Below, piece by piece: positions 6,117 to 24,853 of a DNA stretch of 64,000 nucleotides. How positions within the stretch are numbered: position 1 is the first letter of the stretch; each line of letters begins with the position of its first letter. Below the pieces are notes generated by a model, which saw nothing but the letters and a program-made list of their open reading frames with translations, had not been told where the DNA came from and ran no database searches. The DNA is from Nitrosomonas sp. Is35 (GTDB lineage Bacteria; Pseudomonadota; Gammaproteobacteria; Burkholderiales; Nitrosomonadaceae), in the NCBI RefSeq assembly GCF_033063295.1, contig NZ_JAWJZH010000001.1:1922001-1986000 (forward strand), in the 5' to 3' direction. The position numbers were made by a program, and so were the translations under genes.

Positions 6117-6201
6117 CTCAATCACCTATTTTTATTTAGTTATAGAAAAAACAACGCTCTTTCTTAAATTAGTGGAATTGGGCTTGTTAATACGGTGTCG
6201 T

Positions 6202-7491
6202 TTAGGATTTAGAATCTGCTGTCAAATTGTTGCAATAATCTGCCCAGTCATCCATCAGTTTTATGCGCTTATCAAATAGGTCTCCCCGGCGATACGCGGC
6301 TTCGACTTTATTGGCAATGGTGTGAGCTAACGCCATTTCACAGACTTCTTGCGGGTAGGCAGTGGTTTCACTCGCCCAATCCCGGAATGTGGATCGGAAT
6401 CCATGTGCTGTCAGATTACCGCGTTCCATGCGTTTCAGTACGGCTGTCAGACTCATATCCGATAGCGGTTTATCTTGCTTGGTGCCCGGAAAAACAAATT
6501 CGGATACGTGATTTTCTTTCATGCGTTCCAGTATCGCTATGGCTGCATCGGATAATGGAATGCGATGTTCCCGTCCGGCTTTCATTCTATCTGCGGGAAT
6601 CAGCCATAATCTTTCCACTATGTTGATTTCCGGCCACAATGCGCCTCTAACCTCACCAGAGCGGGCTGCGGTCAGAATTGCAAATTCCAATGCAGCAGCA
6701 CCGATGCCGGGTTGATTGCGCAATTGCTGCATGAATTCCGGAATTTCCTTGTAGGATAAGGCAGTGAAGTGATTGACCTTGGCGATCTTGGAAGGTGACG
6801 GTAATAATTTATCTAAATGCCCTTTCCATCTGGCTGGGTTCTCGCCTTCGCGATAGCCTCGCACGGTTGCCCAATCCAAAACGCTTTCAATGCGTCCGCG
6901 TAAACGGGTGGCCGTTTCTGTTTTGGTTTTCCAGATCGGTTCCAGAACTTTCAATACCAGACCGGTATCCACATGCGCCACATTGAGATTGCCGACAACC
7001 GGACAAGCATACGTTTCTAACGTGCTCCGCCACTGTGCCCGGTGTTTGGGATTTTTCCAGGCATCGCCATGTGCATCCAGATAGCTTTCGATACAATGTT
7101 GAAACTTGACCCGCTTACTATGCGCTTTTTTGTTAGTATCTATCTGCTTTTGTTTGTCTTCCAGGGGATCAATGCCCTCTAAAACCTGCTTTCGATAGTT
7201 GCTGGCTTTATGGCGGGCTTCTTCCAATGAGAAATCGGAATAGCTGCCTAACCCCATATCGCGGCGGCGGCCAGAAAAAGAATACCGATAGATCCATGAG
7301 GCTGCGAAAGTGGGATTCATATCGGTGGAATTGGGATTCGTATTGACGCAAAGATACAAACCCGGCACCCCCCCTACGGCGTGCATGCCTGGTACTTTAG
7401 AGAGTTTTTTAACACCCAGGGCCGATATGGCAGACTTAATTTTTCCCATCATCCGTCCCATCAAAATGTTTGGGATTTGATGATATAGCAA
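6202..7491 (-). CDS. Tyrosine-type site-specific integrase (P4-like, DUF4102 arm-binding domain)
   Basis: 429 residues. N-terminal DUF4102-type arm-binding domain at about 15-115 (GVPGLYLCVN, YRYSFSGRRRDMGLGSYSDFS, ARHKASNYRKQVLEGIDPL), core-binding domain at about 125-225, catalytic domain at about 240-420. All catalytic positions are visible: Arg277 (TAARSGEVRGALW), His363 and Arg366 (HGFRSTFRDWASE), His390 (ALAHT) and Tyr400 (VEAAYRRGDLF), so it appears functional. Methionines at 12, 14 and 15 offer alternative starts. It integrates or excises mobile islands. It points away from a second, broken integrase 300 bp to the right, so two integration events probably share this locus; no tRNA target is seen nearby. 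Confidence 0.93.
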   Translation of the reverse strand: MLYHQIPNILMGRMMGKIKSAISALGVKKLSKVPGMHAVGGVPGLYLCVNTNPNSTDMNPTFAASWIYRYSFSGRRRDMGLGSYSDFSLEEARHKASNYRKQVLEGIDPLEDKQKQIDTNKKAHSKRVKFQHCIESYLDAHGDAWKNPKHRAQWRSTLETYACPVVGNLNVAHVDTGLVLKVLEPIWKTKTETATRLRGRIESVLDWATVRGYREGENPARWKGHLDKLLPSPSKIAKVNHFTALSYKEIPEFMQQLRNQPGIGAAALEFAILTAARSGEVRGALWPEINIVERLWLIPADRMKAGREHRIPLSDAAIAILERMKENHVSEFVFPGTKQDKPLSDMSLTAVLKRMERGNLTAHGFRSTFRDWASETTAYPQEVCEMALAHTIANKVEAAYRRGDLFDKRIKLMDDWADYCNNLTADSKS

Positions 7492-7519
7492 GAAACTTTT
7501 TGGAACAACGAAAACTTAT

Positions 7520-7538
7520 AACTAATTAATAATTAGTT
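7520..7538. promoter_or_regulatory. Perfect palindrome upstream of the integrase gene
   Basis: AACTAATT, AAT, AATTAGTT: eight-base perfect arms 29 bases upstream of the integrase start. Likely a regulator or integrase binding site in its promoter. AT-rich, so chance cannot be dismissed. Confidence 0.4.
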
Positions 7539-7690
7539 GGATAGGATACATCATGGGACATTGTGAAACCTGAAGCCAGCAGTCTCTCTCTCCGCCAAAG
7601 ATGTTCCAAACGTTGCCCAGCAATACCAACAAATCCCTTTAGAATAAACAATATTACGGTAATTTTGCCAATCCTTGGCAACCCTGAGTA

Positions 7691-8098: not shown

Positions 8099-8902
8099 GG
8101 GCCTGTTAACGCTATTTGATATAATTTGGTGATGGAAATCACCGAAACTCAATATCAACAGATCGAGCACTGCCTGCCGCGTCAGCGTGGCAACGTCAGC
8201 CATTCCAATCTGCAAGTTCTCAATGCCATTCTTTACGTTGCCGAGCATGGCTGCAAGTGGCGAGGACTGCCCAAGCGATTCGGCAACTGGCATACCATCT
8301 ATACCCGCATGAATCGCTGGGCAAAGAGTGGTGTACTGAGCCATGTATTTGGGCAACTTCAGCATCAGCAAATCATCCGTATCCGTATTGAAACTGTTTC
8401 GCTGGACAGCACCAGCATCAAAGTCCATCCCGACGGTACGGGTGCGTTAAAAAAAACGGCCCCCAATCCATCGGAAAATCTCGAGGTGGATGGACCACCA
8501 AAATTCATCTGGTTGCCGCAGATTCCAGAACAACCATAGGCTTTGCCCTCTCGCCCGGTCACGCCCACGATGCGCCAGAGGGCAGGCAGCTTTTGCTTTC
8601 CCTCGGTCCCGTCAATACGCCCACCTACCTGCTGATGGATCGTGCTTATGAGGGCGACCAAACCCGGCAACTGGCACTAGATTTGGGTTACATCCCGGTT
8701 GTTCCGCCCAAAGCAAATCGCTTGTCACCCTGGGAATACAACCGTGCCATGTACAAAAAACGCAACGAGATCGAACGATTGTTCAGAAGGCTCAAGGGAT
8801 TTCGCCGCATCTTCTCCAGGTTCGATAAGCTCGATGTCGTCTTCATCTCCTTTATCCACTTCGCTCTCATCGTCGAAGCAATCAGATTGTGTTAACAGGC
8901 CC
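8099..8902 (+). mobile_element. IS5-family (IS427-like) insertion sequence, copy 1
   Basis: 804 bp bounded by perfect terminal inverted repeats GGGCCTGTTAAC and GTTAACAGGCCC, flanked by a TA duplication (8097-8098 and 8903-8904). It encodes a two-phase transposase and interrupts an integrase gene. A copy of the same length with identical encoded proteins lies inverted at 50698-51501. Confidence 0.95.
8132..8895 (+). CDS. IS5-family transposase made by -1 frameshifting
   Basis: The first frame (ATG at 8132, MEITETQYQQIEHCLPRQRG) ends at 8539. The second frame reads on through IGKSRGGWTTKIHLVAADS and GFALSPGHAHDAPEG to 8895. The two overlap at TTAAAAAAAAC (8448-8458), a classic slippery run; a -1 slip there joins DGTGALKK to NGPQSIGKSRGGW, giving a transposase of about 255 residues. 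DDE residues are visible: Asp in SLDSTSIKVHPDG, Asp in LMDRAYEGD, and Glu in KKRNEIERLFRRLKGF. IS427-group elements are known to use this strategy. An upstream GTG or TTG start is possible. Confidence 0.9.
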
Positions 8903-9884
8903 TAGTAGCGCGCCAATGGTGGAATCACTGGAAGCACGATAAAAACGAACGTCATGCAGGCTACACGATCCGGCGCATGGAAGCGGATATATTCCCGGTT
9001 ATTGGTGCAAAACCGGTTAATGACATCACAGCCGCGCAGTTAATAATTATGATCCGCAAGGTCGAGTCGCGCGGTGCGCTGGATATTGCCAAGCGCGTAT
9101 TAACCATGTGCGGTCAAGTCATGCGCTATGCCGTGGCGCACGGGCTAGCAGAGCGAAACCCGGCCGCAGATATAAAACCTTCCGATGTATTGAAACCTAC
9201 CAAGAAAACCAACCACGCGCGATTGAGTGAAAAAGAATTGCCCGAGTTATTGCGCAAGATCGATAGCTATGACGGACAGCCCCTCACCCGCCTTGCATTG
9301 CAGCTTATGGCGTTAACGTTTGTTCGCACCGGCGAATTGATCGGTACCCGATGGGACGAAATCGACACGATCAAAAGAGAATGGCGTATTCCAGCTGAAC
9401 GCATGAAGATGAAAACCCCGCATATTGTCCCCCTATCCGATCAGGCTTTAGCGGTACTGGAAGAAATCCGCAAGCTGGAGGCCGATGATGTTCTATTGTT
9501 TCCAAGTGAACGAAGAGATGGCAAATCAATGAGTAATAACACAATTCTTTACGCTCTTTACCGATTGGGGTATCACAGCCGTATGACCGGGCACGGCTTC
9601 AGAGGGATAGCGTCAACGATCCTTCACGAACAGGGATTCAATCATGATCATATCGAATTGCAGCTTGCACACACTCAACGCGATGCAGTTAGCGCGGCAT
9701 ACAACCATGCGCTTTACTTGGAACCACGGGCACGCATGATGCAGGAATGGGCAGATTACTTGGATAAGTTAGAACGCAATATGTAGTGAATTGTTGCACA
9801 CAAAATTCAACCTATGGTAATCTTAGCCAAAAATCGTACAAGACTATTTTAAAAGATAAATTGTAAGAATTACTAGCGTTGTTT

Positions 9885-9906
9885 ACAGTATTTGGGAGAA
9901 TACTGT
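9885..9906 (+). promoter_or_regulatory. Hairpin presenting the transposase ribosome-binding site in its loop
   Basis: ACAGTATT, TGGGAG, AATACTGT: an 8-bp perfect stem whose loop is the Shine-Dalgarno sequence, with the ATG of the IS481 transposase two bases after the stem. It also overlaps the inner end of the terminal repeat. The same structure is at 54262-54283. It could restrain translation of read-through mRNA. Confidence 0.5.
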
Positions 9907-9908
9907 AG

Positions 9909-10724
9909 ATGAACATACACAAACGCACCCGATTAACTTTATTAGATCGTCAGGAAATCTGGCGGCTTTATCAAACCCGGCTGTGGAAGGTGGCGCATTT
10001 GGCGGAACGCTTTCATGTCAGCCGGCCAACGATTTATGATGTACTGAAACGCGCGAGACTGCAGGAATTTACGCCGCGTGACAGCACCAATCAGCGGTTC
10101 AAGACGTTGCAATACGGTCTTAAGCGCCTGGCTAAGGTCGAACAAGCCATCCAGGAACGGCTCAAGCGTGAAGCCAAACGCTATAACAAGTCTTACCCAG
10201 GTGAGCTTGTTCACTTTGATACCAAGCGGCTTTCCTTGTTGAAAGGGCAATCCGCCAATGAACCTCGCGAGTACCTGTTTGTGGCCATCGATGATTTTTC
10301 CAGGGAGCTGTATGCCGATATTTTTCCCGATAAAACTCAACACAGCGCAGCTCGCTTTCTCATAGACACTGTCATTGCCCAATGTCCGTATCAGATCGAC
10401 TGCGCTTATTCCGATAACGGCAAGGAATTTAAAGGAACTGACGGCCATGCTTTCGGCAAAGCTTGCACACAACACGGTATCGGACAGAAGTTTACCCGCA
10501 TCAATCGTCCGCAAACCAATGGCAAAGCCGAACGAGTCATCCGCACCCTGATGGATATGTGGCACAGCCAGATTTCCTTTAAAGACTGCGCCGATCGGCG
10601 CATTCTGCTTTCCCGTTTCATTAACTTCTACAATACCGTCAAACCTCATAAGAGTTTGAATAATGCTACCCCTTATGAAATACTTCACGCTTATTTCAAT
10701 CAACCTCTCTGTAAACAACCCTGA
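9909..10724 (+). CDS. IS481-family transposase
   Basis: 271 residues. N-terminal helix-turn-helix at about 5-55 (RLTLLDRQEIWRLYQ, then AERFHVSRPTIYDVLKRAR). The integrase catalytic core (rve) follows from about residue 95. DDE residues are Asp in ELVHFDTKRL, Asp in DCAYSDNGKEFKG and Glu in INRPQTNGKAERVIRTL. The C-terminus NFYNTVKPHKSLNNATPYE is the usual rve ending. Full-length compared with the copy at 54 kb, so this copy is the likely active source. Confidence 0.95.
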   Translation: MNIHKRTRLTLLDRQEIWRLYQTRLWKVAHLAERFHVSRPTIYDVLKRARLQEFTPRDSTNQRFKTLQYGLKRLAKVEQAIQERLKREAKRYNKSYPGELVHFDTKRLSLLKGQSANEPREYLFVAIDDFSRELYADIFPDKTQHSAARFLIDTVIAQCPYQIDCAYSDNGKEFKGTDGHAFGKACTQHGIGQKFTRINRPQTNGKAERVIRTLMDMWHSQISFKDCADRRILLSRFINFYNTVKPHKSLNNATPYEILHAYFNQPLCKQP

Positions 10725-10928
10725 GATTTCTTACAGATAAATTTTATTAACACATATGCAGGGGGTGATAGCACTTTTTTGTGTTATCGAGAGAGTGAAA
10801 AATCCAAAGGAGAAACGTAAGTATGGTTATCAAATAAATATGCAATAAGAAGTAGATAGGAAAGAAGCTTCAAATTCCCTGACACATGATCAACCTAACG
10901 CCGTGATGGCGCTGGAGAAAAAGTAGAC

Positions 10929-11153
10929 ATGAAAGAAATTTCAAATTCACCTGACACAATTCCAAAGTTAGGCAAATCCCGTTGGTCGAAAATCGCTAAA
11001 TTTTCACCATTTTCTAAAGAAAAATTCAGACAATTATCAAAAGCAGGAAAAGCACCGCAGCCCGAGCGCATGGGCGTACGCTGCACTTTCTACGATAATG
11101 CGGAGCTTCACCGCTGGCTTGCTGACCCGATCAATTACCGGGCGGGGGAATGA
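10929..11153 (+). CDS. AlpA-like phage/island regulatory protein
   Basis: 74 residues with a winged-helix/AlpA-type layout: SRWSKIAKFSPFSKEKFRQL for the helix-turn-helix, KAGKAPQPERMGVRCTFYDN for the wing, and AELHRWLADPINY at the end. Such proteins act as DNA-binding regulators or excisionase-like factors in P4-type islands and ICEs. It is followed after 3 bp by a primase zinc-finger fragment, the normal island gene order, and lies downstream of two integrases. A weak GGAGAAAAAGT precedes the ATG. Confidence 0.65.
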   Translation: MKEISNSPDTIPKLGKSRWSKIAKFSPFSKEKFRQLSKAGKAPQPERMGVRCTFYDNAELHRWLADPINYRAGE

Positions 11154-11156
11154 GCC

Positions 11157-11369
11157 ATGCAGAAATCCACAAAAAAGCCGCACCCGGCGGGGGTAGCGGC
11201 TGGAATAAACTCACACACGAATTATAGCACCCATGACATATTGAACGAAATCACAAACCGTTTAAAGGGCGTTATCAAACGTCACAATGGCGGTATGCTG
11301 GCATTCTGCCCGAGTCACGATGACCGGAAAGGCCGCAGCCTTGGAGGGTGCTTTTCTAAAAACGGGTAA
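11157..11369 (+). pseudogene. Truncated phage/island primase, zinc-finger N-terminus only
   Basis: 70 residues. HDILNEITNRLKGVIKRHNG followed by MLAFCPSHDDRKGRSLG matches the start of island DNA primases (the CPxHDD zinc-binding motif). The several-hundred-residue Toprim and helicase parts are missing. The reading frame stops inside the GCGGGTAA repeat at 11360-11382, so the truncation coincides with a recombination-like junction. Starts 3 bp after the AlpA-like gene. Confidence 0.6.
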
Positions 11370-11382
11370 AAAAGCGGGTAAA
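11360..11382. repeat. Direct repeat matching 7711-7733, candidate island end
   Basis: Matches 7711-7733 at 21 of 23 positions around the core CGGGTAAAAAAGCG. The pair brackets the broken integrase, both insertion sequences, the AlpA-like gene and the primase stub, as attL/attR or a deletion scar would. Confidence 0.45.
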
Positions 11383-11489
11383 TTTCAATAATTGAAAATA
11401 AAAACCATCATGGATAATTGATTACAGAGAATCATATGAATCCCTCTCTCGCACTGATTCTCCAGTGTATGTCATCATTCCTGCTTTTA

Positions 11490-11921
11490 TCATTCCTCGC
11501 CAATCTTACTGCGGAACGATTTTCTTTCGCTCTGTACCGATTTACTTTCCAAGCGTTTTATTTGAGAAGCTTTGGTCGGCTTGGTGGGTACCCGGGTTTT
11601 CAGTACAATCGTGACACTTTTAATCATTTCACGTAAGCGGTTGAGTGCATCTTCCCGGTTCTTAACTTGACTGTTAAACCGCTGCGCTTTGATGATAATG
11701 ACACCTTCGCTGCTAATGCGGCTATCCTTTAATTGCAATAGCTTGTCCTTGTAGTGTTCGGGCAATGATGACGCCTGTATATCGAATCGCAGATGAATCG
11801 CGGTCGCCACTTTGTTGACATTCTGCCCGCCGGAGCCTTGCGAGCGGACAGCAAAAATCTCAATCTCAGTCAATGGTATTGTGAGATTGTTTGTTATTTT
11901 CAGGAAGGTTATTTTATGCAC
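11490..11921 (-). CDS. arfB: Peptidyl-tRNA hydrolase ArfB (YaeJ), ribosome rescue factor
   Basis: 143 residues, the expected size. It contains the catalytic GGQ motif in AVRSQGSGGQNVNKVATAIHLRFD (residues 25-48) and a basic C-terminal tail (KTRVPTKPTKASQIKRLE, then KSFRSK) that enters the mRNA channel of stalled ribosomes in E. coli ArfB. It releases nascent chains from non-stop complexes. The given start is GTG at 11921 with no good ribosome-binding site; an internal start near LTIPLTEIEI would also fit the family. It stands alone between the island remnants and a dead copper ATPase. Confidence 0.92.
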   Translation of the reverse strand: MHKITFLKITNNLTIPLTEIEIFAVRSQGSGGQNVNKVATAIHLRFDIQASSLPEHYKDKLLQLKDSRISSEGVIIIKAQRFNSQVKNREDALNRLREMIKSVTIVLKTRVPTKPTKASQIKRLESKSVQSERKSFRSKIGEE

Positions 11922-12749: not shown

Positions 12750-13352
12750 ATGGCAAAAATTCTCGTCTTGTATTACAGCATGTATGGTCATATCGAAATT
12801 ATGGCCAACGCGGTAGCTGATGGGGCACACAGCGTCGAAAATACCGAGGTTGACGTTAAGCGTGTCCCCGAACTCATGCCGGAAGAAGTGGCGCGAAGGG
12901 TCGGTGCCAAGCTTGATCAGCCAGCACCCATTGCGACCGTGGATGAGCTGACTAACTATGATGCCATTATTTTCGGCACACCTACACGCTTCGGCAATAT
13001 GTGCGCGCAAATGCGCAATTTTCTCGATCAAACAGGCCGCTTATGGCTTAACGGCGGACTGATCGGCAAAGTGGGTAGCGTATTTACGTCTACAGGCACT
13101 CAGCACGGCGGCCAGGAAACCACAATCACCTCGTTTCATACTACCTTACTCCATCATGGCATGATCATCGTGGGTGTTCCCTACTCCTGCCAGGAAATCA
13201 TGAACATGAGTGAAATCACCGGCGGTTCACCGTATGGGGCAAGCACGCTGGCCGGTGGCGATGGCAAACGTCTGCCATCAGACAATGAAATAAAAATAGC
13301 GCACTTTCAGGGGACTCATGTCGCCAAAGTAGCCAACAAGCTATCTCGCTGA
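12750..13352 (+). CDS. wrbA: NAD(P)H:quinone oxidoreductase WrbA
   Basis: 200 residues, standard for WrbA. FMN phosphate loop [12 protein letters not shown] (residues 8-19), [18 protein letters not shown] (about 75-92) and [17 protein letters not shown] (about 108-124) are diagnostic. It is a tetrameric soluble flavoprotein making two-electron quinone reductions. GGAGG lies nine bases before the ATG. Its position before an extradiol-type dioxygenase and an aromatic oxidation cluster suggests quinone handling, though WrbA is also a general stress protein. Confidence 0.95.
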
Positions 13353-13411
13353 TGAGGTAGTACACTGAGTTAACAAACGCTCGTACTTTATTTCAGCGGA
13401 AGTTTTTAATC

Positions 13412-14230
13412 ATGAGCAACATTTCACAAACGCTATCGCCCGTTTTGTTTTTACCGCATGGTGGTGGGCCACTACCGATACTTGGTGACAAAGGGCATGA
13501 AAAGATGGTTGCTTTTCTAAAAGAAATAGCAACTAAGCTGGGCGAGCCATCCGCGATTTTAGTCATCAGCGCTCACTGGGAAGAGGAACAAGCAACCATA
13601 ACGAGCAATAGTCATCCCGGAATAATCTATGATTACTATGGATTTCCTGCTGAGGCCTACCAAATTCAATATGCAGCACCGGGTAATCCCGAGCTGGCGA
13701 ATGATATTTGTACACAGTTAACAGCGAGCGACATACCGGCGAGACTTGATGAGCAACAAGGTTTTGATCATGGGTTGTTTGTGCCGCTCAAACTGATGTT
13801 TCCGCAAGCCCAGATTCCTTGTCTCCAGTTATCATTACTGAAAAATTTAAATCCTCGATTGCATATTGCACTTGGAAAAGCAATTGCATTTTTACGCGAG
13901 AGGAATATCCTGATTATCGGTTCAGGCATGTCATTTCACAATTTGAAAACATTTTTTTCGAACGATATCGATAGCGGCAAAGAAAATAAGGGATTTGATC
14001 ACTGGTTGATTGAAACTTGTACCGATCCGGAGATTCTATCTGCAGCGCGTGAACAGCGATTGATTGAATGGGAAAAGGCACCGTTTGCCCGATTTTGTCA
14101 TCCGAGAGAAGAACATTTATTGCCTTTACATGTTTGCTACGGTATCGCCTGCGCCAGTACGCCAATAGCAAAAATTGTATTTAATGAGGAGGTGATGGGG
14201 AAAAAAGTGACGAGCTTCCTGTGGCAGTAG
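13412..14230 (+). CDS. DODA-type extradiol ring-cleavage dioxygenase (YgiD/LigB family)
   Basis: 272 residues, normal for YgiD. Metal ligands are visible in FLPHGGGPLPIL (His16), SAHWEEE (His about 53) and GFDHGLFVPLKLMFP; GSGMSFHNL near residue 170 is conserved. Family members are Zn or Fe enzymes that open catecholic rings such as L-DOPA (plants and E. coli YgiD); the physiological bacterial substrate is often unknown. Located 60 bp after wrbA and 115 bp before the cresol-type oxidation cluster, so a catechol-processing role is possible but unproven. Confidence 0.85.
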   Translation: MSNISQTLSPVLFLPHGGGPLPILGDKGHEKMVAFLKEIATKLGEPSAILVISAHWEEEQATITSNSHPGIIYDYYGFPAEAYQIQYAAPGNPELANDICTQLTASDIPARLDEQQGFDHGLFVPLKLMFPQAQIPCLQLSLLKNLNPRLHIALGKAIAFLRERNILIIGSGMSFHNLKTFFSNDIDSGKENKGFDHWLIETCTDPEILSAAREQRLIEWEKAPFARFCHPREEHLLPLHVCYGIACASTPIAKIVFNEEVMGKKVTSFLWQ

Positions 14231-14344
14231 AATCATGGTATTTTGATGCTGATTTTCATTGTTGGCCATCAGCCATGAGCATTTGAATTAACCGCACCAA
14301 GCTGCCAGCTTATTATCATCTCAATGAAATACTGGAGAATCAGT

Positions 14345-14674
14345 ATGGAAAAATCAAAATTGGAAAATTGGCTATTCGGTTTCATGTTCACAGTCATTTT
14401 TGCGGCAAGCAATGCATGGTCAGCGCAAGATGAGAAAAACAGTCCCGGATTTGCATGGAAGGATGGCGCAGAAATTTACGCCAAAATTTGCGCATATTGT
14501 CATGAAGCCCAAGTCGGACCGCACATTCGCCATCGTGACCTTCCCGCAGCTTATATCCGTGCAGTCGTTCGCAATGGTAACCGGGCCATGCCGGCCTTTC
14601 GTCCTTCAGAAATCGACGACGAATCGTTAGTCAAACTGGCGGATTTCATTGCAACCAAAGATGCACAGCGTTAA
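14345..14674 (+). CDS. Periplasmic c-type cytochrome (PchC-like subunit)
   Basis: 109 residues from the ATG at 14345, which has GGAG seven bases upstream; an in-frame ATG 21 bases earlier lacks one. Residues 1-27 form a Sec signal peptide ending NAWSA. Heme motif CAYCH at 49-53, axial Met82 in AMPAF. Size and position 15 bp before the Tat protein and upstream of a PchF-like flavoprotein match the cytochrome subunit of p-cresol methylhydroxylase, which takes electrons from the flavin. The short signature GPHIRHRDLPAAYIRAVVRNG is close to that subfamily. Confidence 0.85.
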   Translation: MEKSKLENWLFGFMFTVIFAASNAWSAQDEKNSPGFAWKDGAEIYAKICAYCHEAQVGPHIRHRDLPAAYIRAVVRNGNRAMPAFRPSEIDDESLVKLADFIATKDAQR

Positions 14675-14688
14675 GGAGATCACATTCC

Positions 14689-15618
14689 ATGGATGAAACG
14701 CGACGTAGCTTCATCAAAGGCATGCTGACTGGTGGAACCTTGTTGGCCTTCGGTATTCCTACCGTCACTCAAGCACTATCCACCAGCAAAACACCTTCCG
14801 GTAATATGCGCAATTGTCACTTGTTACTGGGGAATACCCCCATAGACGAAGCCTTTGCCAAAGGCGCCCAAGCCGCGTATACCCGTTTCAGCAGCTTCAA
14901 CCAAGAAGGCGCATTACCGGCATTTCAATTTGCAGATGAGCTACTAACCAACCCCCTACGAATAATCGATCTATTAACACAATCCCGGAATATGCGTTGG
15001 GTAGCCATCATGGATTATGCCAATGCGGCCATATTCACTGAGTTGGTGCGAAACTCTGAACGGCATCTCCTCGCATTAGGCTCGCATATGTTCGCACCCA
15101 GCGATAACACCTCCCTCCCGCAGCGCCATGTATGGACTACCGCGTCACCGGCATACAGCGCCGGAGGATTACTTGCCTCCCTGCTTACCCATAATCAGCA
15201 TGATTTCTCTATTGTCGAAAATTTTCTTGAACAAGCGAAAAAAGATAGTGCAATGAGCGATTCATCGTCAGCGGAGTTTTCGTCTTTTCGGTTGGCTGAA
15301 CAACCCTCGACGCATTTGCATTGCGCCGGGGTATCTCCGCTGGAAGCCAGTCAACGGATTGGCTGGAAGACATCAGAAAATTGGGAATCTGTACTCTCTC
15401 GCGAAGATAAAACAGCGAATGCTACAGCTATTGAACATCCCCAGTTCGAGAACTGGATAGAGAACACCGGCTATGCCATTGTTGCTACGGCATTGGGAAT
15501 GGGAGTGCAGCAAGCATCCTGCTCCAATCGCGCATTTGTACATCAATCGAATCAACGCAATTCGAACCATCAAGGGTTATCGGGAAAACATTTCGTTTCG
15601 TTTGTCATCGACGTGTAG
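14689..15618 (+). CDS. Tat-exported protein of unknown function in the alkylphenol-oxidation cluster
   Basis: 309 residues. Twin-arginine motif TRRSFIK at residues 4-10, hydrophobic stretch MLTGGTLLAFGIPTV, cleavage after TQA (about 30). The mature part shows no recognised cofactor motif; NCHLLLGNTP, VAIMDYANAAIFTELVRNS and HVWTTASPAYSAGGLLASLL are notable. There are three Cys in the mature part but no CxxCH. Tat export suggests folding in the cytoplasm or partnership with the flavoprotein. It lies 14 bp after the cytochrome and 12 bp before the flavoprotein, so it belongs to the same operon and may be a maturation or escort protein (inference). Confidence 0.7.
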   Translation: MDETRRSFIKGMLTGGTLLAFGIPTVTQALSTSKTPSGNMRNCHLLLGNTPIDEAFAKGAQAAYTRFSSFNQEGALPAFQFADELLTNPLRIIDLLTQSRNMRWVAIMDYANAAIFTELVRNSERHLLALGSHMFAPSDNTSLPQRHVWTTASPAYSAGGLLASLLTHNQHDFSIVENFLEQAKKDSAMSDSSSAEFSSFRLAEQPSTHLHCAGVSPLEASQRIGWKTSENWESVLSREDKTANATAIEHPQFENWIENTGYAIVATALGMGVQQASCSNRAFVHQSNQRNSNHQGLSGKHFVSFVIDV

Positions 15619-15630
15619 GGAGAAAACAGC

Positions 15631-17175
15631 ATGGCCAGTCAATATATCGCATTGCCCAAAGGCGTATCGGAAAAAAACTTCGATGCGGCCATCCGTGATT
15701 TTCGCAAAGTACTGGGCGACGCTGCTGTACTCACCAGCGCGGAACAACTTGCACCTTACATCAAGACGATGATGCCGGTTTCCGATGCCGAACACACCCC
15801 GTCTGCAGCACTATTGGCCACAACCGTCGAGCAAATCCAGAAAATTGTTGCGATTTGCAATCAATACAAAGTACCGATCTGGATGATTTCCACCGGAAAA
15901 AACCTGGGCTACGGCTCGGCAGCCCCGGCAGAGCGGGGTCAGGTAGTGCTTGACTTGAAGCGCATGAATCGCATTCTCGAAGTGGATAAGGATTTGGCCT
16001 TTGCCTTGGTCGAACCGGGTGTAACCTATCAGCAACTCTACGATTACATCAAAGAACACAAGTTGGGTTTATGGCTATCCATGCCCGCCCCTTCCGCCAT
16101 CGCAGGACCGGTTGGTAACACGCTGGATCGCGGCGTGGGTTACACGCCCTATGGCGAGCACTTTTTGTTCGCTTGCGGCATGGAGGTCGTGCTGGCGAAT
16201 GGCGAAGTGTTGCGCACCGGCATGGGCTCAGTGCCCAATTCCAACACCTGGCAGGTATTCAAATGGGGCTATGGCCCCTATCTGGATGGCATTTTTACGC
16301 AATCCAACTATGGCATCGTCACCAAATTCGGTTTCTGGCTGATGCCTGAACCACCGGCATTCAAGCCGTTTGTGATTCAATATCAGCATGAAGAAGATAT
16401 CGTTGAGATCGTCGAAACGATTCGTCCGCTGCGCATTAGCGGCGTCATTCCAAACGCTGTGGTCATTGCCCATGCGCTCTATGAGGCGCCGGTAAAAGCC
16501 AAGCGCAGTGATTATGTGTCCGGACCGGGTTCAATTCCGGATGAAGCGGTGTATCGTATTATGAAAGATCACAAACTGGGGATCTGGAACGTATATGCCG
16601 CGCTCTATGGCACGCAGGAGCAGATTGATGTGAACTGGAACATTGTCACGCAAGCATTCGGTCAATCGGGTAAAGCTAAGATACTAACGGAACAGGAAGC
16701 AGGTGATGATCCGGCATTTGCTTATCGCGCCAAGCTCATGCGCGGAGAAATGACGCTCACGGAATTTTCGTTGTATAACTGGCGTGGAGGTGGCGGGTCA
16801 ATGTGGTTTGCGCCCGTCTCTCAAGCGCGCGGCAGTGAAACCCTTAAACAAATGGCGCTGACTAAGCAGATACTGGCCAAGTACGGACTGGATTATTCCG
16901 GTGAATTTATCGTCGGGATGCGCGATATGCATCACATTGTCGATGTACTGTACGATAAGACCGACCCAGAGCAGACGAAAGCGGCCTATCAATGTTTCGA
17001 GGAATTGCTGACCGAATTCTCTGCGCGCGGGTATGGAACTTATCGGGTCAATACGGCATTTATGGACAAAGTCGCCGAAACCTATGGCCCAGTGCAGAGA
17101 AATGTTCACAAAATACTTAAAAAAGCGTTGGATCCCAATGGCATTCTTGCGCCGGGAAAATCAGGCATACGCTAG
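15631..17175 (+). CDS. VAO/PCMH-type FAD-linked oxidase, 4-alkylphenol methylhydroxylase-like (PchF-like)
   Basis: 514 residues, matching PchF, EugO and vanillyl-alcohol oxidase (about 520-560). FAD-binding PCMH domain at about 45-240: PIWMISTGKNLGYGSAAPA, VLDLKRMNRILEVD, GPVGNTLDRGVGYTPYGEH and MGSVPNSNTWQVFKWGYGPY are diagnostic of the vanillyl-alcohol oxidase / 4-cresol dehydrogenase group. C-terminal cap with WRGGGGSMWFAPVSQARG and final PNGILAPGKSGIR. I cannot assign the covalent flavin residue. The enzyme hydroxylates the benzylic carbon of p-alkylphenols via a quinone methide; with the neighbouring cytochrome, water is the oxygen source. AGGGAG precedes the ATG. Confidence 0.9.
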   Translation: MASQYIALPKGVSEKNFDAAIRDFRKVLGDAAVLTSAEQLAPYIKTMMPVSDAEHTPSAALLATTVEQIQKIVAICNQYKVPIWMISTGKNLGYGSAAPAERGQVVLDLKRMNRILEVDKDLAFALVEPGVTYQQLYDYIKEHKLGLWLSMPAPSAIAGPVGNTLDRGVGYTPYGEHFLFACGMEVVLANGEVLRTGMGSVPNSNTWQVFKWGYGPYLDGIFTQSNYGIVTKFGFWLMPEPPAFKPFVIQYQHEEDIVEIVETIRPLRISGVIPNAVVIAHALYEAPVKAKRSDYVSGPGSIPDEAVYRIMKDHKLGIWNVYAALYGTQEQIDVNWNIVTQAFGQSGKAKILTEQEAGDDPAFAYRAKLMRGEMTLTEFSLYNWRGGGGSMWFAPVSQARGSETLKQMALTKQILAKYGLDYSGEFIVGMRDMHHIVDVLYDKTDPEQTKAAYQCFEELLTEFSARGYGTYRVNTAFMDKVAETYGPVQRNVHKILKKALDPNGILAPGKSGIR

Positions 17176-17225
17176 TTTCATTTTGACCTTGAGTAAGACC
17201 TAACGATTCCAAAGCGGAGGTACCC

Positions 17226-18335
17226 GTGAAAAAAATCAAGGCAGCCGTCGTCCGCCAGAAAGGCGGGCCTTTTCAGATTGAAGACCTGATGCAGGATGAT
17301 CCGCGATCCGATGAAGTGCGCGTCCGTATCGTTGCGACGGGAATGTGCCATACCGATATGGTTGCGCGTGATCAGCTCTATGAGGTGCCACTGCCGGTGG
17401 TATTAGGGCATGAAGGCTCGGGCGTAGTCGAACAGATTGGTAGCCATGTGAAGAAAGTCGCTGTTGGCGACCATGTTGTGCTGACTTATATGTGGTGTGG
17501 TCACTGCAAGCCCTGTTTACGGGGCGATCTGACCTATTGCGAGCAATTTTATGCGCTGAATTTTGGTGGTGCACGCGAGGATGGCAGCATGTCAACCTTT
17601 ACAACAGGTAATACTTCAGAGCCGATTCACGATCATTTCTTTGGGCAATCGTCGTTTGGCACCTTTGCGCTCGTACATGAGCGTAACGTCATCAAAGTCC
17701 CCAAAGATGCGCCCTTGGAGCTTCTTGGCCCGCTGGGTTGCGGCATTCAGACCGGCGCCGGAGCCGTCATGAATGCACTCAAAGTCAATCCGGGCAGCAG
17801 TTTTGCAGCTTTTGGCGGCGGCGCAGTGGGACTCAGTGCCGTGATGGCGGCACGTGCTGCCGGCGCTACGACCATCATCTCGGCCGATGTGGTTCCTTCG
17901 CGCTTGGCCTTGGCGATGGAACTCGGCGCAACCCATACCATTAACAGCCGGGAAACCGATCCAGTCGAAGCGGTTCGCAAAATAACGAATGGCGGCTCTG
18001 ATTTCACGCTCGAATCGAGCGGACGCCCTGCGGTATTGCGTCAAGCCATTGATGCATTGGCTATCCGCGGGACATGCGGCATTGTCGGCGCACCGGCCTT
18101 GGGTACCGAAGCGAGCTTCGATGTAAACGGGGTGATGACGACAGGAAAACGCATTATCGGAATCGTTGAGGGCGATAGCAAACCGGATCTTTTTATTCCA
18201 GCACTGGTTGAACTTTATCAGCAGGGCAGATTTCCTTTTGACAAACTGGTGAAGTTCTATTCCCTCGATCAAATCAATCAAGCCGCTGAAGATAGTGAGA
18301 AGGGCATCACGATTAAACCGATCATTCGACTCTAA
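17226..18335 (+). CDS. Zinc-dependent aryl-alcohol dehydrogenase
   Basis: 369 residues, medium-chain zinc alcohol dehydrogenase. Catalytic zinc residues Cys41 ([11 protein letters not shown]) and His62 ([12 protein letters not shown]); structural zinc Cys91, Cys94, Cys97, Cys105 ([15 protein letters not shown]); NAD site [12 protein letters not shown] near 195. The overall pattern with [17 protein letters not shown] is that of benzyl-alcohol dehydrogenases (XylB/AreB group). GTG start with GGAGG five bases upstream. Placed between a PchF-like enzyme and an aldehyde dehydrogenase, it probably oxidises the (hydroxy)benzyl alcohol to the aldehyde. Confidence 0.92.
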
Positions 18336-18397
18336 TCCACAGTTATGTGCTTCACTTTGATTGGATTTTCCAAAAAAACACCCATGAGGAACGCCAT

Positions 18398-19900
18398 ATG
18401 GAAAAGAAATTAGCATCCCAATCGCCTTATTCAAATTTCGACCAGCTATTCATCAATGGCCAATGGCGCCACGGCAAGGGAGCAAAGATTCTGCGCGACC
18501 TCAATCCCTATGATGGCAGCACGCTGGTCGAAATACCCCATGCCAATCGCGATGACATGGACGAAGCCTATCGCGGCGCCGCCAAGGCGCAGCACGCATG
18601 GGCGGCATTAATACCGGGCGAGCGCGCAGCCATCATGCGCCGCGCGGCACAAATCATGGAAACACGCCGTGAAGAAATTGTGTCCTGGATCATTCATGAA
18701 TCCGGTGGCACGCGCATCAAAGCGAATCTGGAATGGCATGCCGTGCATGGCGTGCTGCTTGAGGCAGCCACGCTGCCTTATTTGGTGGAGGGCCGGATTC
18801 TTCCGGCAGACATTCCCGGCAAGGAAAGCCGCATGTATCGTAAACCCGTGGGGGTTGTCGGGGTGATCAGCCCCTGGAATTGGCCATTCCAGCTCACCGC
18901 TCGTTCCGCAGCACCCGCGCTCGCGGTCGGTAATGCTGTCGTGGTCAAGCCAGCCAGCGATACTCCAGTAACGGGCGGACTGTTGTTTGCAAAAATCCTT
19001 GAAGAGGCGGGATTGCCTGCGGGTTTACTCAGCGTTATCGTCGGTGCAGGCAGCGAGATTGGCGATGCCTTTGTCACCCACCCCATTCCTCGCGTCATAT
19101 CGTTTACCGGCTCCACGCCGGTTGGTCGCAATATCGCAAGATTGGCAGCTGAAGGACCCATGCTCAAGCGGCTTGAATTGGAATTGGGTGGAAATGGCCC
19201 GTTTGTGGTATTGAATGATGCCGATCTGGGGCAAGCCGTGGAAGCCGCCGTGTTTGGGAAATTTCTGCACCAGGGCCAGACTTGCATGAGCGTTAACCGC
19301 TTCATTATTGAGGACCGGGTTCACGATGAGTTTGTCGAACGCTTTGCCGATCGTGTGCGTCAATTGAAAGCAGGTGACCCGAATGCGCCTGATACGATGA
19401 TTGGACCCATTATCAATAAATCCCAGTTGAATGGCCTGCAACAACGGATCCACGACGCCATTTCATCGGGAGCCCACCAAATGGTGGGGGGTGACGCACA
19501 AGGCCTGGTGCTACCCCCTCATGTATTCTCTCAAGTCACCAATCAGATGCCATTGGCGCAAACGGAATCGTTCGGCCCCATCGCACCGATCATACGTGCG
19601 CGCAATGAAACGGATGCATTGAATATCGCCAACGACACCGACCTTGGGTTGGCTGCCGCGGTGTTTACACAAGATATTGAACGCGGCCTTCGGTTTGCAC
19701 AACAACTCGAATCGGGCATGGCGCATATCAATGACCAGCCGGTCAATGATTTACCTTATAACCCTTTCGGCGGTGAAAAGAACTCAGGAGTCGGTCGTTT
19801 CAATGGCGTCTGGGCCGTCGCAGCATTCACGACTGATCAATGGATAAGCGTTCAGCATACGCCGCGTCGTTATCCATTCAATGCGCAAGCCATTGGGTAA
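18398..19900 (+). CDS. NAD(P)-dependent benzaldehyde/vanillin-type aldehyde dehydrogenase
   Basis: 500 residues from ATG 18398, chosen because GAGGAA lies just upstream; an upstream in-frame start at 18347 lacks a site. Motifs: [19 protein letters not shown] (Asn of the active site), [24 protein letters not shown] (general-base Glu) and [11 protein letters not shown] (catalytic Cys). The ending [16 protein letters not shown] is typical of the family. Follows the aryl-alcohol dehydrogenase in the same direction, so it likely makes the aromatic acid (for example 4-hydroxybenzoate). No ring-cleavage operon for that acid is in this window. Confidence 0.92.
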
Positions 19901-19966: not shown

Positions 19967-22342
19967 CTAAAAATTTTCATAGCGATTGATATCAAAAATA
20001 CCTGCTATATGAGGCTCAAGTTCTTTTTGCCAGTCTGTAATGTCATGCAGGATTTCCCAGAACTGCGGATGCGTGCGCCGCACTCCCCATGTGCTCACAA
20101 TATGTTCGAAGTGTTCCTCCTTTTTGGCTATGCCTAGCAGCGATACAAATTCTTCAATATCCGAGGCGGGTACATCAAAAATGAAATTCGGATAGCTGCC
20201 GGTAATGCCGGGGTATACGGTCAGACGATCCTTTTCCGGTTGATACCGCAATTCCTCGCCCAGTATGAATGCAACGTTGCTATGCGCACGATCCCGCAAC
20301 AATGTATAGACGGTACGCTTATCCTGATCATGTTTAACTCGCACGAAAGTCACTTCCGGCAACCGGTTGATGCCAGCCAGATCGGCCGCCGGCCGGGCTG
20401 CGATGGCAGACAACGCTTGATCCGCTTTTTGTATCCAAAGCGGTTGATCCGAACGGACACAGTCGACCTGCTCACAACGATTAATCGGATCATCTGCCAT
20501 CGCATTGACGGATTCAAAACGCTGGAGGATCCGTGACACAAGTTCCTGCTTCGGATCATCAGTTGTGAAGTTCTCCGCCGAAGGCGATACATCGTCGATT
20601 TTTTCGTAAAAAATGCCGAATTTCAGTTTGCCTGAATGTTGATACCAATCGTGCAGAATATCCGTGCGTTGGCCATCCGGGATCAAACGCAAAAAGTTAT
20701 GTTCCGAGCTATTGCGTATCAGATCGAAATACAGCCTGGTCAGAAGTTGATGCGCGACATTGCCAAACACGTTGTAATTCACCACCAGGATGTAGTATGT
20801 ACGCTCAAGTAACGGATAATCCACGAGCCATAGCGTTTGAGGAATATCTCCGATCAATCCCCTTGTAACCGAAGCGCTATCGTAATGGCGGGTGATCGTC
20901 AGCAAGGCATCTTTATTCCGGCCATCGCCATCCCACAAGTGATCCAGCGATGCGCCGCCGGGGTATTGCAATACATACTGACTGCGGCGTTGTGCCAGAT
21001 AATCGTTGTGATGGCCGAGATAGTGCAGCCATTCTTCACCCATCGCCAGCAGATCGTCGTTTTGCCCAGGCATTTCCAGTAACGGAATCGCTTGATGCCG
21101 ATATGCGTTATTCGTAATAAAAGGATCGGATCCCGGATTCTGGAATAAAACCCAGAAACGGTCGCGCAGCACATCGGTGGCAATCTGACCACGGCATACC
21201 GGTCCGTGGATAACATTGCGCACATAGTATTCGGCATCATCCAGCATGAACCGGTAACGAGCATATGCCGGAATGGCCGCAAACGTGGCGAACGGATTCA
21301 CCCGTTCCGCATAGCTATAACCAGGCAAATCACCCAGCGGCCATTCCTGACTGAAAAATAATTCCTTGATGCGGCGGTATTTAGCTTGATCGAGAGGATA
21401 CGGAATCCGCCGTTTGTGCAGGATGCTGCCGGAAATCTGGCGTATACGATAGAAAAATGGCTGCCCGGGATCGTCATTGGGAAATACGGTGGAGATCGGG
21501 ATGATCTCCCTGCCTGGTGGTGTCGATGACCGGATTAACTCAAAAAACCGCAGCTCCCCATCCAGATCGGGAAAATACAGCGTCGCCATAAACAGGTGCT
21601 CATACAACCAGCGCGCCACCAGTTTGCCGCGCTTATCATCACGATTGAAAAATGCTTCCCATTGATGAAGCGATTCCTTCTCGCCATCGGTAAGCGTCAC
21701 CGGTTCATCGGTAATCACCGCGCCTTGCTTGACCCATCCAGACAGTAACGCATATTCCTGATCGCTGAGTCCGGTAACGGCAAACGGCATGCCGCTGCGC
21801 GGATAATCACGAGCATAACCGGAAAACTTCTCACTGGAAACACACTGATTTTTCCGGGTAATGCCCAGCTCGATTGAGTCCGGTATTTTGCTATTCGGTG
21901 GGAATGGATACTGTTTCGCCAGCGATATCATTCCCGCGATCAATGGTTCAGACTGTGCATTGTCGGATTGAAGAACAGAATGAAAACCGCGCTCGCGCCA
22001 TCCCGGAACAGTCAATTCGTCAATACCCAACCGGGTGGGCGGCATGGCTTCGACTCGTGCGCCACCATAAATCGATTCGCGAAAGGCGCCACGCAACAAC
22101 CCTTCGGCATTCTCCATCTTTAGCTGGCACGGCGCATCAAAACAACTGTGGCATGACAAGCACTTTGATTCGATGATTGGCCGGATTTCTTGGGCATAAG
22201 AAACCGGACGCTCAACCGGTGCTGGCAGTATTGCAGGGCTAGGAATCTGGTTATTGCCAGAAATTGCATCTTGATATTTTTGACAAGCAGACAATACAAA
22301 AAGCAAAGCAATGAGATATATACCTGAATAAACTATCCGCAT
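19967..22342 (-). CDS. cti: Fatty acid cis/trans isomerase (Cti), periplasmic heme lipoprotein-like
   Basis: 791 residues, matching Cti (about 760-790). N-terminal signal with a lipobox-like VLSAC (residues 16-20). A heme c motif CLSCH with flanking Cys (SCFDAPC) at about 60-70, and the family text RPIIESKCLSCHSC, GGARVEAMPPTRLGIDE, RYMLDDAEYYVRNVIHGPVCRG-like region and GGASLDHLWDG. Cti converts cis to trans unsaturated membrane fatty acids under solvent or heat stress. Adjacent, convergent, to the aromatic oxidation operon, which is a sensible pairing with exposure to phenolic solvents (inference). Confidence 0.92.
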   Translation of the reverse strand: MRIVYSGIYLIALLFVLSACQKYQDAISGNNQIPSPAILPAPVERPVSYAQEIRPIIESKCLSCHSCFDAPCQLKMENAEGLLRGAFRESIYGGARVEAMPPTRLGIDELTVPGWRERGFHSVLQSDNAQSEPLIAGMISLAKQYPFPPNSKIPDSIELGITRKNQCVSSEKFSGYARDYPRSGMPFAVTGLSDQEYALLSGWVKQGAVITDEPVTLTDGEKESLHQWEAFFNRDDKRGKLVARWLYEHLFMATLYFPDLDGELRFFELIRSSTPPGREIIPISTVFPNDDPGQPFFYRIRQISGSILHKRRIPYPLDQAKYRRIKELFFSQEWPLGDLPGYSYAERVNPFATFAAIPAYARYRFMLDDAEYYVRNVIHGPVCRGQIATDVLRDRFWVLFQNPGSDPFITNNAYRHQAIPLLEMPGQNDDLLAMGEEWLHYLGHHNDYLAQRRSQYVLQYPGGASLDHLWDGDGRNKDALLTITRHYDSASVTRGLIGDIPQTLWLVDYPLLERTYYILVVNYNVFGNVAHQLLTRLYFDLIRNSSEHNFLRLIPDGQRTDILHDWYQHSGKLKFGIFYEKIDDVSPSAENFTTDDPKQELVSRILQRFESVNAMADDPINRCEQVDCVRSDQPLWIQKADQALSAIAARPAADLAGINRLPEVTFVRVKHDQDKRTVYTLLRDRAHSNVAFILGEELRYQPEKDRLTVYPGITGSYPNFIFDVPASDIEEFVSLLGIAKKEEHFEHIVSTWGVRRTHPQFWEILHDITDWQKELEPHIAGIFDINRYENF

Positions 22343-23254: not shown

Positions 23255-24853
23255 TCAGTATGAATACGCAAGCTCACTGACGAGAGCATCACCCTCTGCG
23301 AACATCTTATCAAGGCTTGTTTCGAGTCGGCCCATAACAAATTCATGCTTTTCGTGTGCATTGACTTTAAAAATATCAATCTTGTCAATAACATAAGCGA
23401 TAAAAGTAGTGGCCAAACCAGTAAGCCCGCCAGTCAGCACCGCAGTAAGAATATCGGCAAAAGGCTCTAGCCATGGTGCTGCTTTGATCATGTTGTCGAT
23501 ATGCTGCTCAACAGCAATGCCACCGATCACAGCCAAACCGGCTGCAATCAGCTTGGAGGCTTCGTGAGCTGCTTGTGCAATTGTCATGCCCTGAGGTGGG
23601 AAACACAACATCTTGATTGCTTTTAGTAATGAGTAGAACCCTTCTCTAATGACACGAACAATTCTCTTCCCTGTACGGACAAACATATTGATGATCACAG
23701 TAACTAGATTCGACAGAAACCCTGAAATGAACCCATCTCTGAAGGCTACGCATGCAACCTTCCATTTGGCGGCAACGCGTCTCGCAATGTGAGATAACCT
23801 CTCCTTCATTACAAGAAAAAAACGATTATCATCAAACCCAGCAGAATAGCCTTTAGCGTAGATGTCTTGAATCTCGTCAAATATCGCTTTGAAGAACTCG
23901 CAAAGAACAAGCCCCAGAGCTTGCTGTGTCCCCATCTTTGCACCTTCATGCGCACCAGTAGTGGCCATCCGCCCACTATAATATTTCACTTTGTCCAACT
24001 CAGTGGGAGCGTGCTTCTTGGCCGTAGCCTTCCCTTTCTCATAGCTGTCGTTCACTCGCTGACGATCTACTTCATAAAACTCCTCATTGGTCTGTTCGCG
24101 TTTGGCCTGCTTACTGTCAACCCATTCCTTCTTGTCATAATCATTCATCGACCGATTGATTTCCCTACGGGTTGACGCAAGATTATTGGTATCCGTTGCG
24201 AAGTCGGCCTTGCGCTCTGACTCCAGCATGAAGCCACCATCCTTATGGAATTCGGAATTCGAAACAACGTGATCTGGACTTGTATCGGAGCCTCTTTCAG
24301 TTCTTCCGGTATACGCGTCAACAAGGTTTTGTTTACGGTCAAGTTGAGAACGAGTGAATTCACTGCCGACGGAACTCTTACCACTGCCCTCAAATGACTT
24401 CCCCTCGCTGTTCTTCGCTCTGGTGTAGTCTTCCCGTTTATACTCGTCCTGCTCCATTGCATACACTTTTTCTTTGGCATTATGAATAGTGGTGACGTTT
24501 CCACCGTTCTTGTCCCCGCTAGACACGATACCTCCTAGACCGAAAGGACCAACGACCGCAGACAAAACCTCATTACGGCACGAAGTCAGAAGTAGTCGAA
24601 ACCGTTCATCATTGAACTCATTCTCCAATACTGTTAGATGTTGCTGAATCTCTTCGTCGCTCACCTCAACATTGAACTCGAATTCATACTTGGCATCCAG
24701 TTCCATTCGGGTTCTCTGAACTGAATCCCAATCAACCTCGGAGTGAAGAAATTCATCGATAAGCGCGTTGTCTACCACAACTGCCAAACCATGCCGTAAG
24801 TTTCGTTGTTCTTGTACTAATTTTCGTTTGAGAAATCTCTTTGTACTATCCAC
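23255..24853 (-). CDS. Large membrane-associated protein of unknown function, paired with a TerB-like protein
   Basis: 532 residues, GTG start with GGAGGTG seven bases upstream. Residues 1-100 are helical; 110-270 are charged, low-complexity and probably disordered (SEGKSFEGSGKSSVG, RTERGSDTSPDHVV, KKEWVDSKQAKREQTNEEF). The C-terminal half has long helices and two to four hydrophobic segments (IAQAAHEASKLIAAGLAVIGGIAV, DILTAVLTGGLTGLATTFIAYVIDKI). No Walker A, nuclease or protease motif is evident; GSGKSS near 157 lacks P-loop spacing. It starts 17 bp after the TerB-like gene and is clearly co-expressed. Function unknown; a membrane-acting stress or defence module is conceivable. Confidence 0.75.
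   Translation of the reverse strand: MDSTKRFLKRKLVQEQRNLRHGLAVVVDNALIDEFLHSEVDWDSVQRTRMELDAKYEFEFNVEVSDEEIQQHLTVLENEFNDERFRLLLTSCRNEVLSAVVGPFGLGGIVSSGDKNGGNVTTIHNAKEKVYAMEQDEYKREDYTRAKNSEGKSFEGSGKSSVGSEFTRSQLDRKQNLVDAYTGRTERGSDTSPDHVVSNSEFHKDGGFMLESERKADFATDTNNLASTRREINRSMNDYDKKEWVDSKQAKREQTNEEFYEVDRQRVNDSYEKGKATAKKHAPTELDKVKYYSGRMATTGAHEGAKMGTQQALGLVLCEFFKAIFDEIQDIYAKGYSAGFDDNRFFLVMKERLSHIARRVAAKWKVACVAFRDGFISGFLSNLVTVIINMFVRTGKRIVRVIREGFYSLLKAIKMLCFPPQGMTIAQAAHEASKLIAAGLAVIGGIAVEQHIDNMIKAAPWLEPFADILTAVLTGGLTGLATTFIAYVIDKIDIFKVNAHEKHEFVMGRLETSLDKMFAEGDALVSELAYSY

Follow-up and report, generated by a model that had tools for sequence, protein, structure and literature searches.

In this study, a 64,000-nucleotide stretch of Nitrosomonas sp. 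Is35 DNA (contig NZ_JAWJZH010000001.1, positions 1,922,001 to 1,986,000; hereafter the window) was analysed for a cassette of five genes encoding a cytochrome c, a protein with a twin-arginine translocation (Tat) signal, a flavoprotein and two dehydrogenases. The enzyme family is ordinary and the p-cresol methylhydroxylase (PCMH) operon is real; what is new is an explanation for the Tat gene and a flavoprotein clade shared by nitrifiers across phyla. The Tat protein, PchX, probably acts as a hitchhiker escort that takes the flavoprotein PchF, folded, loaded with flavin adenine dinucleotide (FAD) and without a signal of its own, to the periplasm. We put the probability of this reading at about three in four, because in nearly all copies with an adjoining cytochrome gene the signal lies on X or on PchF, and in none on both.

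Export signals and the PchX family

PchF copies (n = 118, in 116 loci) were classed by the presence of an adjacent cytochrome gene and by a Tat-like signal on PchF itself (cis) or on a neighbouring open reading frame (ORF; trans). Tat-like signals were called by a motif scan made for this analysis, and PchF was inspected visually for signals of the general secretory (Sec) pathway. Where a cytochrome gene was adjacent (n = 104), copies were trans only (87), cis only (13) or neither (4), and none was both (Fisher p 2e-13, ignoring relatedness of the copies). The 14 copies without one were neither (n = 4), cut by a contig end (n = 4), trans (n = 4), cis (n = 1) and "both" (n = 1); in the last, L147, the cis call sits upstream of the annotated PchF start. 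Among the 104 copies with an adjacent cytochrome, 81 of 82 were trans at PchF identities of at least 60%; below 60%, 13 were cis, 6 trans and 3 neither. Of 58 random windows, 8 contained a Tat ORF under the same loose rule, which sets the chance level. With a stricter rule, the signal was found at 68 of 77 neighbouring positions versus 39 of 3550 other ORFs, and a twin-arginine signal was visible by eye in 7 of the 9 misses (L036, L052, L054, L055, L057, L062, and L063).

In the cis group, PchF starts with a Tat signal and X is absent; in 12 of the 13 cases pchF directly follows the cytochrome gene without an intervening X, and in L192 the cytochrome gene is downstream. On the tree, the cis signal requires 2 changes, and X moves the opposite way in 1.9 of 2 random independent pairs. 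The Tat ORF follows the cytochrome, and does not precede pchF, in the distant loci L183, L184, and L186. Window PchF has no twin-arginine signal, and the source genome (3.3 Mb in two contigs) contains tatC.

Under the escort model, PchF would fold and bind FAD in the cytoplasm with no export signal, PchX would bind the folded PchF, and the twin-arginine signal of PchX would lead both across the membrane by way of the Tat translocon. PchC, the cytochrome, would cross by Sec and receive its haem in the periplasm, where PchF would leave PchX and pair with PchC. Electrons from FAD would be accepted by PchC and passed to the cytochrome c pool, and the two cytoplasmic dehydrogenases would complete the oxidation to 4-hydroxybenzoate. 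We infer the binding of PchX to PchF, their co-export and release, and p-cresol as the natural substrate. Tat is described as exporting folded, cofactor-loaded proteins, with which signal-less partners can ride as "hitchhikers" (PMC10924467), and the Pseudomonas putida PCMH is stated to be in the periplasm although its PchF has no signal (PMC12724174).

Neither Pfam nor NCBIfam gave a match to the window Tat protein at E <= 0.001. Homologues at this threshold numbered 136; among the 120 matches listed, those with an organism name came chiefly from Nitrosomonas, Nitrosospira, and Nitrosovibrio, one was from a Candidatus Nitrotoga, and a few names were broader (e.g. Betaproteobacteria, Burkholderiales, Proteobacteria, and Anaerolineales). 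In the loci around PchF relatives, a Tat-signal protein gene was also observed beside pchF in non-nitrifying bacteria, and X of L145 (Campylobacterota) was annotated as a twin-arginine protein by the depositors' pipeline. PchX was 117 to 346 residues long across the examined loci (309 in the window, 117-291 in non-nitrifier loci), and the nitrifier form had about 100 extra residues. A core, ...GLxDDAxAxLxxELxRxxGxRxLxxGxH..., was common to most X proteins, and a C-terminal strand of the FVSFVI(D/E) type occurred in many. In the 57 aligned PchX sequences, mostly of the longer type, R121, H133, and H147 were invariant. A profile of 16 nitrifier proteins (A5) matched a profile of 14 short X proteins (A4) with an E of 3.4e-17 over 142 columns, signal region included; A4 consisted of 12 non-nitrifier and 2 second-Nitrosomonas-type proteins and had no member in common with A5. 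The short-X profile also picked up P0172 of Methylocaldum marinum, which is named PchX at NCBI. AlphaFold2 models of window PchX (309 residues) and of a 195-residue Methylobacter X had a predicted local distance difference test (pLDDT) score of 80.3 and 80.4, respectively. Both were predicted to have the core order strand-helix-strand-helix-strand-helix-strand-strand-helix-helix-strand, with an insert in the long form, and neither model had a confident solved structural relative. By its position beside pchF, its Tat-like signal and its profile relation to a PchX-named protein, the window Tat protein is assigned to the PchX family. In P. putida, a gene named pchX presumably lies between pchC and pchF.

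Several observations weigh against the escort reading. L185 (38% identity) has a cytochrome and neither signal, none being visible by eye either, and is a genuine misfit; copy 1 of L058 likewise adjoins a cytochrome gene without either signal, although X accompanies copy 2 of that locus. Neither signal was called in L191 (a short contig) and L150 (X has RRRF and failed the rule). The copies are related, and the only two independent swaps cannot reach significance. Signals were called by our own motif scan rather than by SignalP. Pfam TAT_signal at E <= 1 matched 5 of 10 PchX proteins, none over the cut-off and the window protein not among them; the PchX signal therefore rests on the twin-arginine motif and the hydrophobic stretch. 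PchF of the cis group has also lost the FAD tyrosine (L, V or I stands there in all 14 proteins), so that loss of X may track loss of covalent FAD. The invariant arginine and histidines and the extra nitrifier residues are more than a mere carrier might need.

These invariant residues, and the missing FAD tyrosine of cis-signal PchF without X, would also suit a role of PchX in assembly after its own export to the periplasm by Tat, either in attaching FAD covalently or in bringing PchF and PchC together, with PchF exported otherwise. This is unlikely, because Tat ORFs also lie beside tyrosine-less PchF (L183, L184, L186, L188, and L189; 0 of 10 "far" rows have Tyr), and because it leaves unexplained both the gain of a Tat signal on PchF exactly where X is missing and how folded PchF crosses the membrane. 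PchX may nevertheless do more than carry and have a part in covalent flavinylation, since R121, H133, and H147 are invariant and the FAD tyrosine is absent where X is absent. A further explanation is that the cytochrome and its signal peptide carry PchF out and that PchX is incidental; 1DII shows PchF in complex with PchC, and the cytochrome bears its own signal. However, c-type cytochromes receive haem after Sec export, so no folded cytoplasmic PchC is expected that could carry PchF. X also persists beside PchF without an adjacent cytochrome gene in L147, L188, L189, and L194, as well as in L046 (contig end), and carriage by the cytochrome appears highly improbable. It is the account of a 2025 paper that credits the cytochrome's signal for export of the related BpfAB flavoprotein, and the escort model is a directly testable alternative to that account (PMC12724174).

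Two further arrangements were observed among the relatives. In L058, a gammaproteobacterial metagenome-assembled genome (MAG), two PCMH copies lie side by side at 5711-7542 and 8722-11562; the cytochrome and PchF ORFs of the first overlap with no X, and the second has X. This locus may be a natural case of one escort for two enzymes. In L153, L166, L167, and L168 (family code f45), the Tat-like signal of PchF itself is followed by a lipobox-like LASC, and these flavoproteins may be Tat lipoproteins. In addition, one Nitrosomonas MAG (locus L005) has PchX-like sequence at G051:C1:2895536-2896363 (residues 41-309) and 1510084-1510791 (residues 1-236); the two separate places could reflect rearrangement, duplication or assembly error.

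The operon, its enzymes and its flanks

The five cassette ORFs, at 14324-19900, all run in the same direction, with gaps of 14, 12, 50, and 11 bases from the cytochrome to the aldehyde dehydrogenase gene. With two upstream genes they make up a series of seven co-directional genes at 12750-19900:

12750..13352, + strand: WrbA-type NAD(P)H:quinone oxidoreductase, upstream of the cassette (NF002999, 354 bits, cut-off 141)
13412..14230, + strand: LigB/DODA-type class III ring-cleavage dioxygenase homologue, upstream of the cassette (PF02900, 109 bits)
14324..14674, + strand: PchC-like monohaem cytochrome c, start at 14324 or 14345, hydrophobic export signal (PF13442)
14689..15618, + strand: PchX, Tat-signal protein (MDETRRSFIKG...), twin arginines at 14701-14706, C-terminal strand motif FVSFVIDV
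15631..17175, + strand: PchF, PCMH flavoprotein, without its own signal peptide, FAD-tyrosine codon at 16774-16776
17226..18335, + strand: zinc-dependent aryl/benzyl-alcohol-type dehydrogenase
18347..19900, + strand: aldehyde dehydrogenase (PF00171), with an equally likely alternative start at 18398 (MEKKLASQ)

Ribosome-site-like AGGAGA and GGGAGA overlap the stop codons preceding the Tat gene and pchF, respectively; these Shine-Dalgarno-like runs suggest tight co-translation. As judged from its sequence, the five-gene cassette is a real PCMH operon. Its recurrence argues against chance, because the cytochrome, the Tat protein and PchF occur together in all 41 tabulated nitrifier loci (the table omits the split locus L005, the fragment L043 and the second-type loci L060, L065, and L080). 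A relative of the alcohol dehydrogenase was found in 39 of the 41 (that of L025 only 47% identical) and of the aldehyde dehydrogenase in just 17, some loci being shortened; oxidation to the acid may therefore use other aldehyde dehydrogenases.

The best PDB matches of the flavoprotein were 1DII, the solved 4-cresol dehydrogenase, and 1WVE (776 bits each), followed by 9ffk (575 bits). Vanillyl-alcohol and eugenol oxidases gave 390-463 bits, and 9h40, likewise named p-cresol methylhydroxylase, gave only 318 bits. By these scores the window flavoprotein is closer to PchF than to oxidases of the vanillyl-alcohol type. The cytochrome, with the haem motif CAYCH at 14489-14503, had one PDB match at E <= 0.001, the PCMH cytochrome PchC (1dii_C, 69.9 bits). 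With P. putida PchF residues numbered by counting on the PDB alignment to the window protein, window Tyr382 corresponds to the FAD-linking Tyr384, and the active-site residues Tyr95, Glu380, Trp394, Glu427, His436, Asp440, Tyr473, and Arg474 are kept as well. All nine are kept throughout the nitrifier clade wherever a row has a residue at the position (42 or 41 rows). The tenth tested residue, Arg512, is Lys in window PchF and in every other aligned row with a residue there. The closest PDB entry to the alcohol dehydrogenase was 5TNX (zinc alcohol dehydrogenase, 533 bits), and 1F8F, a benzyl alcohol dehydrogenase, gave 478 bits. The aldehyde dehydrogenase was closest to 4-hydroxybenzaldehyde dehydrogenase (NADP+) (9jw2, 680 bits), and no NCBIfam equivalog scored above its own cut-off among the 25 of 44 families shown. 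On these matches, the operon encodes a route from p-cresol to 4-hydroxybenzoate.

An earlier note made from the letters of this DNA had described five ORFs in one direction with short gaps, named the enzyme types now found by comparison, and proposed a route from a 4-alkylphenol to the acid. All of this was borne out, the route by the PCMH residues kept apart from Arg512 and by the nearest relative of the aldehyde dehydrogenase. The note had left the Tat protein without a known role, and here it has been superseded: the protein is related to PchX-named proteins, and the comparison gives it a likely role in carrying PchF.

WrbA was found near pchF in 11 of 21 Nitrosomonas loci and in 0 of the 20 other nitrifier loci tabulated (contig ends shorten some loci). 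The LigB/DODA-type homologue reached 141.6 bits with the 4,5-DOPA dioxygenase equivalog, whose cut-off is 233; the gene was present in 16 of the 21 Nitrosomonas loci, and weaker matches (33-38%) were present in 3 of the other 20. To the left lie a phage-type integrase (6202-7491, - strand), a second integrase-like ORF whose match begins inside the profile (8977-9786, + strand) and a transposase (9909-10724, + strand); the left flank has therefore seen mobile elements. Facing the cassette from the 3' side is a fatty acid cis/trans isomerase (886.6 bits; 19967-22342, - strand), which we take to be a solvent-stress enzyme. A 532-residue ORF at 23255-24853 (- strand) had no Pfam match at E <= 0.001.

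Distribution among nitrifiers and physiology

Among the 125 Nitrosomonadaceae genomes searched, 44 had PchF of at least 84% identity, and the same 44 had PchX; 7 further genomes had PchF-like matches of 34-68% only. A phylum-wide draw gave a match at E <= 1e-80 in 8 of 398 genomes, the source genome included. Within the 80 kept loci of named genomes used for the PchF distribution, 43 had at least 80% identity, all with nitrifier or nitrifier-compatible labels. Four of these labels are imprecise (L007, Proteobacteria; L022, Gallionellaceae; L026, Burkholderiales "AOB4"; L030, Nitrospirae), and L035 clusters with Nitrospira although its label is Nitrosospira "NOB2".

After two of the 43 close loci were dropped, window PchF and 41 close copies from Nitrosomonas, Nitrosospira, Nitrotoga, and Nitrospira formed one clade, with a support of 99 in the Shimodaira-Hasegawa-like approximate likelihood-ratio test (SH-aLRT). 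The Nitrotoga group (SH-aLRT 98) was nested inside the Nitrosomonas group (98), and Nitrospira, which belongs to another phylum, lay within the clade at 80-88% PchF identity to the window. On this tree, horizontal transfer of the PCMH module among nitrifiers is needed, because of the nesting of Nitrotoga and the position of Nitrospira. Window PchF was 99% identical to a Nitrosomonas MAG copy, and Nitrosomonas L060 and L080 had a second PchF type, 67% identical, with its own X and outside the clade. PchF was much better conserved than PchX within the clade; median identities of the Nitrospira group to the window were 87% for PchF, 85% for the alcohol dehydrogenase, 58% for the cytochrome, and 38% for PchX. 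The cassette had been called unexpected in a probable chemolithoautotroph, which does not agree with its presence in the 44 Nitrosomonadaceae genomes and in other nitrifiers. No statement of the escort role of PchX or of the cross-phylum clade was found in the part of the literature covered, subscription papers, including the original P. putida pch paper, lying outside the scope of the search.

The source genome had no 4-hydroxybenzoate 3-monooxygenase over the cut-off (29.8 bits vs 538.7), and a complete p-cresol catabolic route including this enzyme was thus not found. For this reason growth on lignin compounds looks less likely than detoxification combined with a supply of electrons, and the suggested recovery of lignin-derived compounds as a carbon source lacks support. 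A growth pathway for lignin-derived or other phenols could draw on the complete side-chain route to the acid, the LigB-type gene upstream in the window, an intradiol dioxygenase homologue elsewhere in the source genome (107.8 bits) and another directly after the alcohol dehydrogenase in Nitrosospira L031. It is nonetheless very unlikely given the missing monooxygenase and the uneven presence of a nearby aldehyde dehydrogenase, which was found in 14 of 21 Nitrosomonas, 0 of 4 Nitrotoga-type, 2 of 10 Nitrosospira-type, and 1 of 6 Nitrospira-type loci. A somewhat better case, though still the less probable one, can be made for a substrate other than p-cresol, i.e. another 4-alkylphenol met by nitrifiers such as plant phenolic nitrification inhibitors. 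The close PchF clade is confined to nitrifier-labelled genomes among the compared sequences, and relatives take other phenols, with one relative acting on bisphenol F (PMC12724174). Against it, the tested PCMH residues are kept, Arg512 apart, and the nearest relative of the aldehyde dehydrogenase fits a one-carbon side chain. The L031 homologue (8743-9486) has its own Tat-like signal and a four-base overlap with the end of the alcohol dehydrogenase ORF, which suggests that the PCMH operon is linked to a ring cleavage that takes place outside the cytoplasm.

We propose tentatively, at somewhat less than even odds, that PchX founds a new Tat hitchhiker family, with a fold unlike the helical one, for export of PCMH-type flavoproteins, and that nitrifiers of two phyla share a horizontally transferred, tuned PCMH module shielding nitrification from gut-bacterial, plant or sewage phenols while feeding electrons to cytochrome c. 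If true, the escort model would extend the known Tat hitchhikers by one family and make pchX a gene to include when PCMH-type enzymes are expressed in the periplasm. The nitrifier clade points to a defence or side-metabolism directed at phenols that ammonia and nitrite oxidisers have in common, of relevance to wastewater treatment and nitrification inhibitors.

Comparison with known systems

The window operon resembles P. putida PchCF (1DII, 1WVE) in the flavoprotein, the cytochrome and the FAD tyrosine, and differs in having Lys in place of Arg512 and an added alcohol dehydrogenase gene. Vanillyl-alcohol and eugenol oxidases, of the same flavoprotein superfamily as window PchF, are oxidases without a cytochrome partner, and in the Rhodococcus relative L148 the cytochrome, X and a signal are all absent.

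In the FAD glucose dehydrogenase of Burkholderia cepacia, the gamma subunit is likewise a small protein with a Tat signal that accompanies an FAD dehydrogenase lacking a signal and having a cytochrome c subunit; it is needed for secretion and is a Tat hitchhiker for a flavoprotein (PMC6719666). The gamma subunit is described as having five alpha helices and staying in the complex (PMC6719666), whereas PchX is predicted to be alpha/beta and does not figure among the named components of the solved PCMH. No sequence relation between the two was found, and the FAD glucose/gluconate dehydrogenase small-subunit family gave no Pfam match to 10 PchX proteins at E <= 1, a search in which HMMER filters drop most matches above 0.1. 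The placing of the signal on one partner only, as in a Tat hitchhiker pair, was observed here by motif scan in 87 trans and 13 cis cases of 104.

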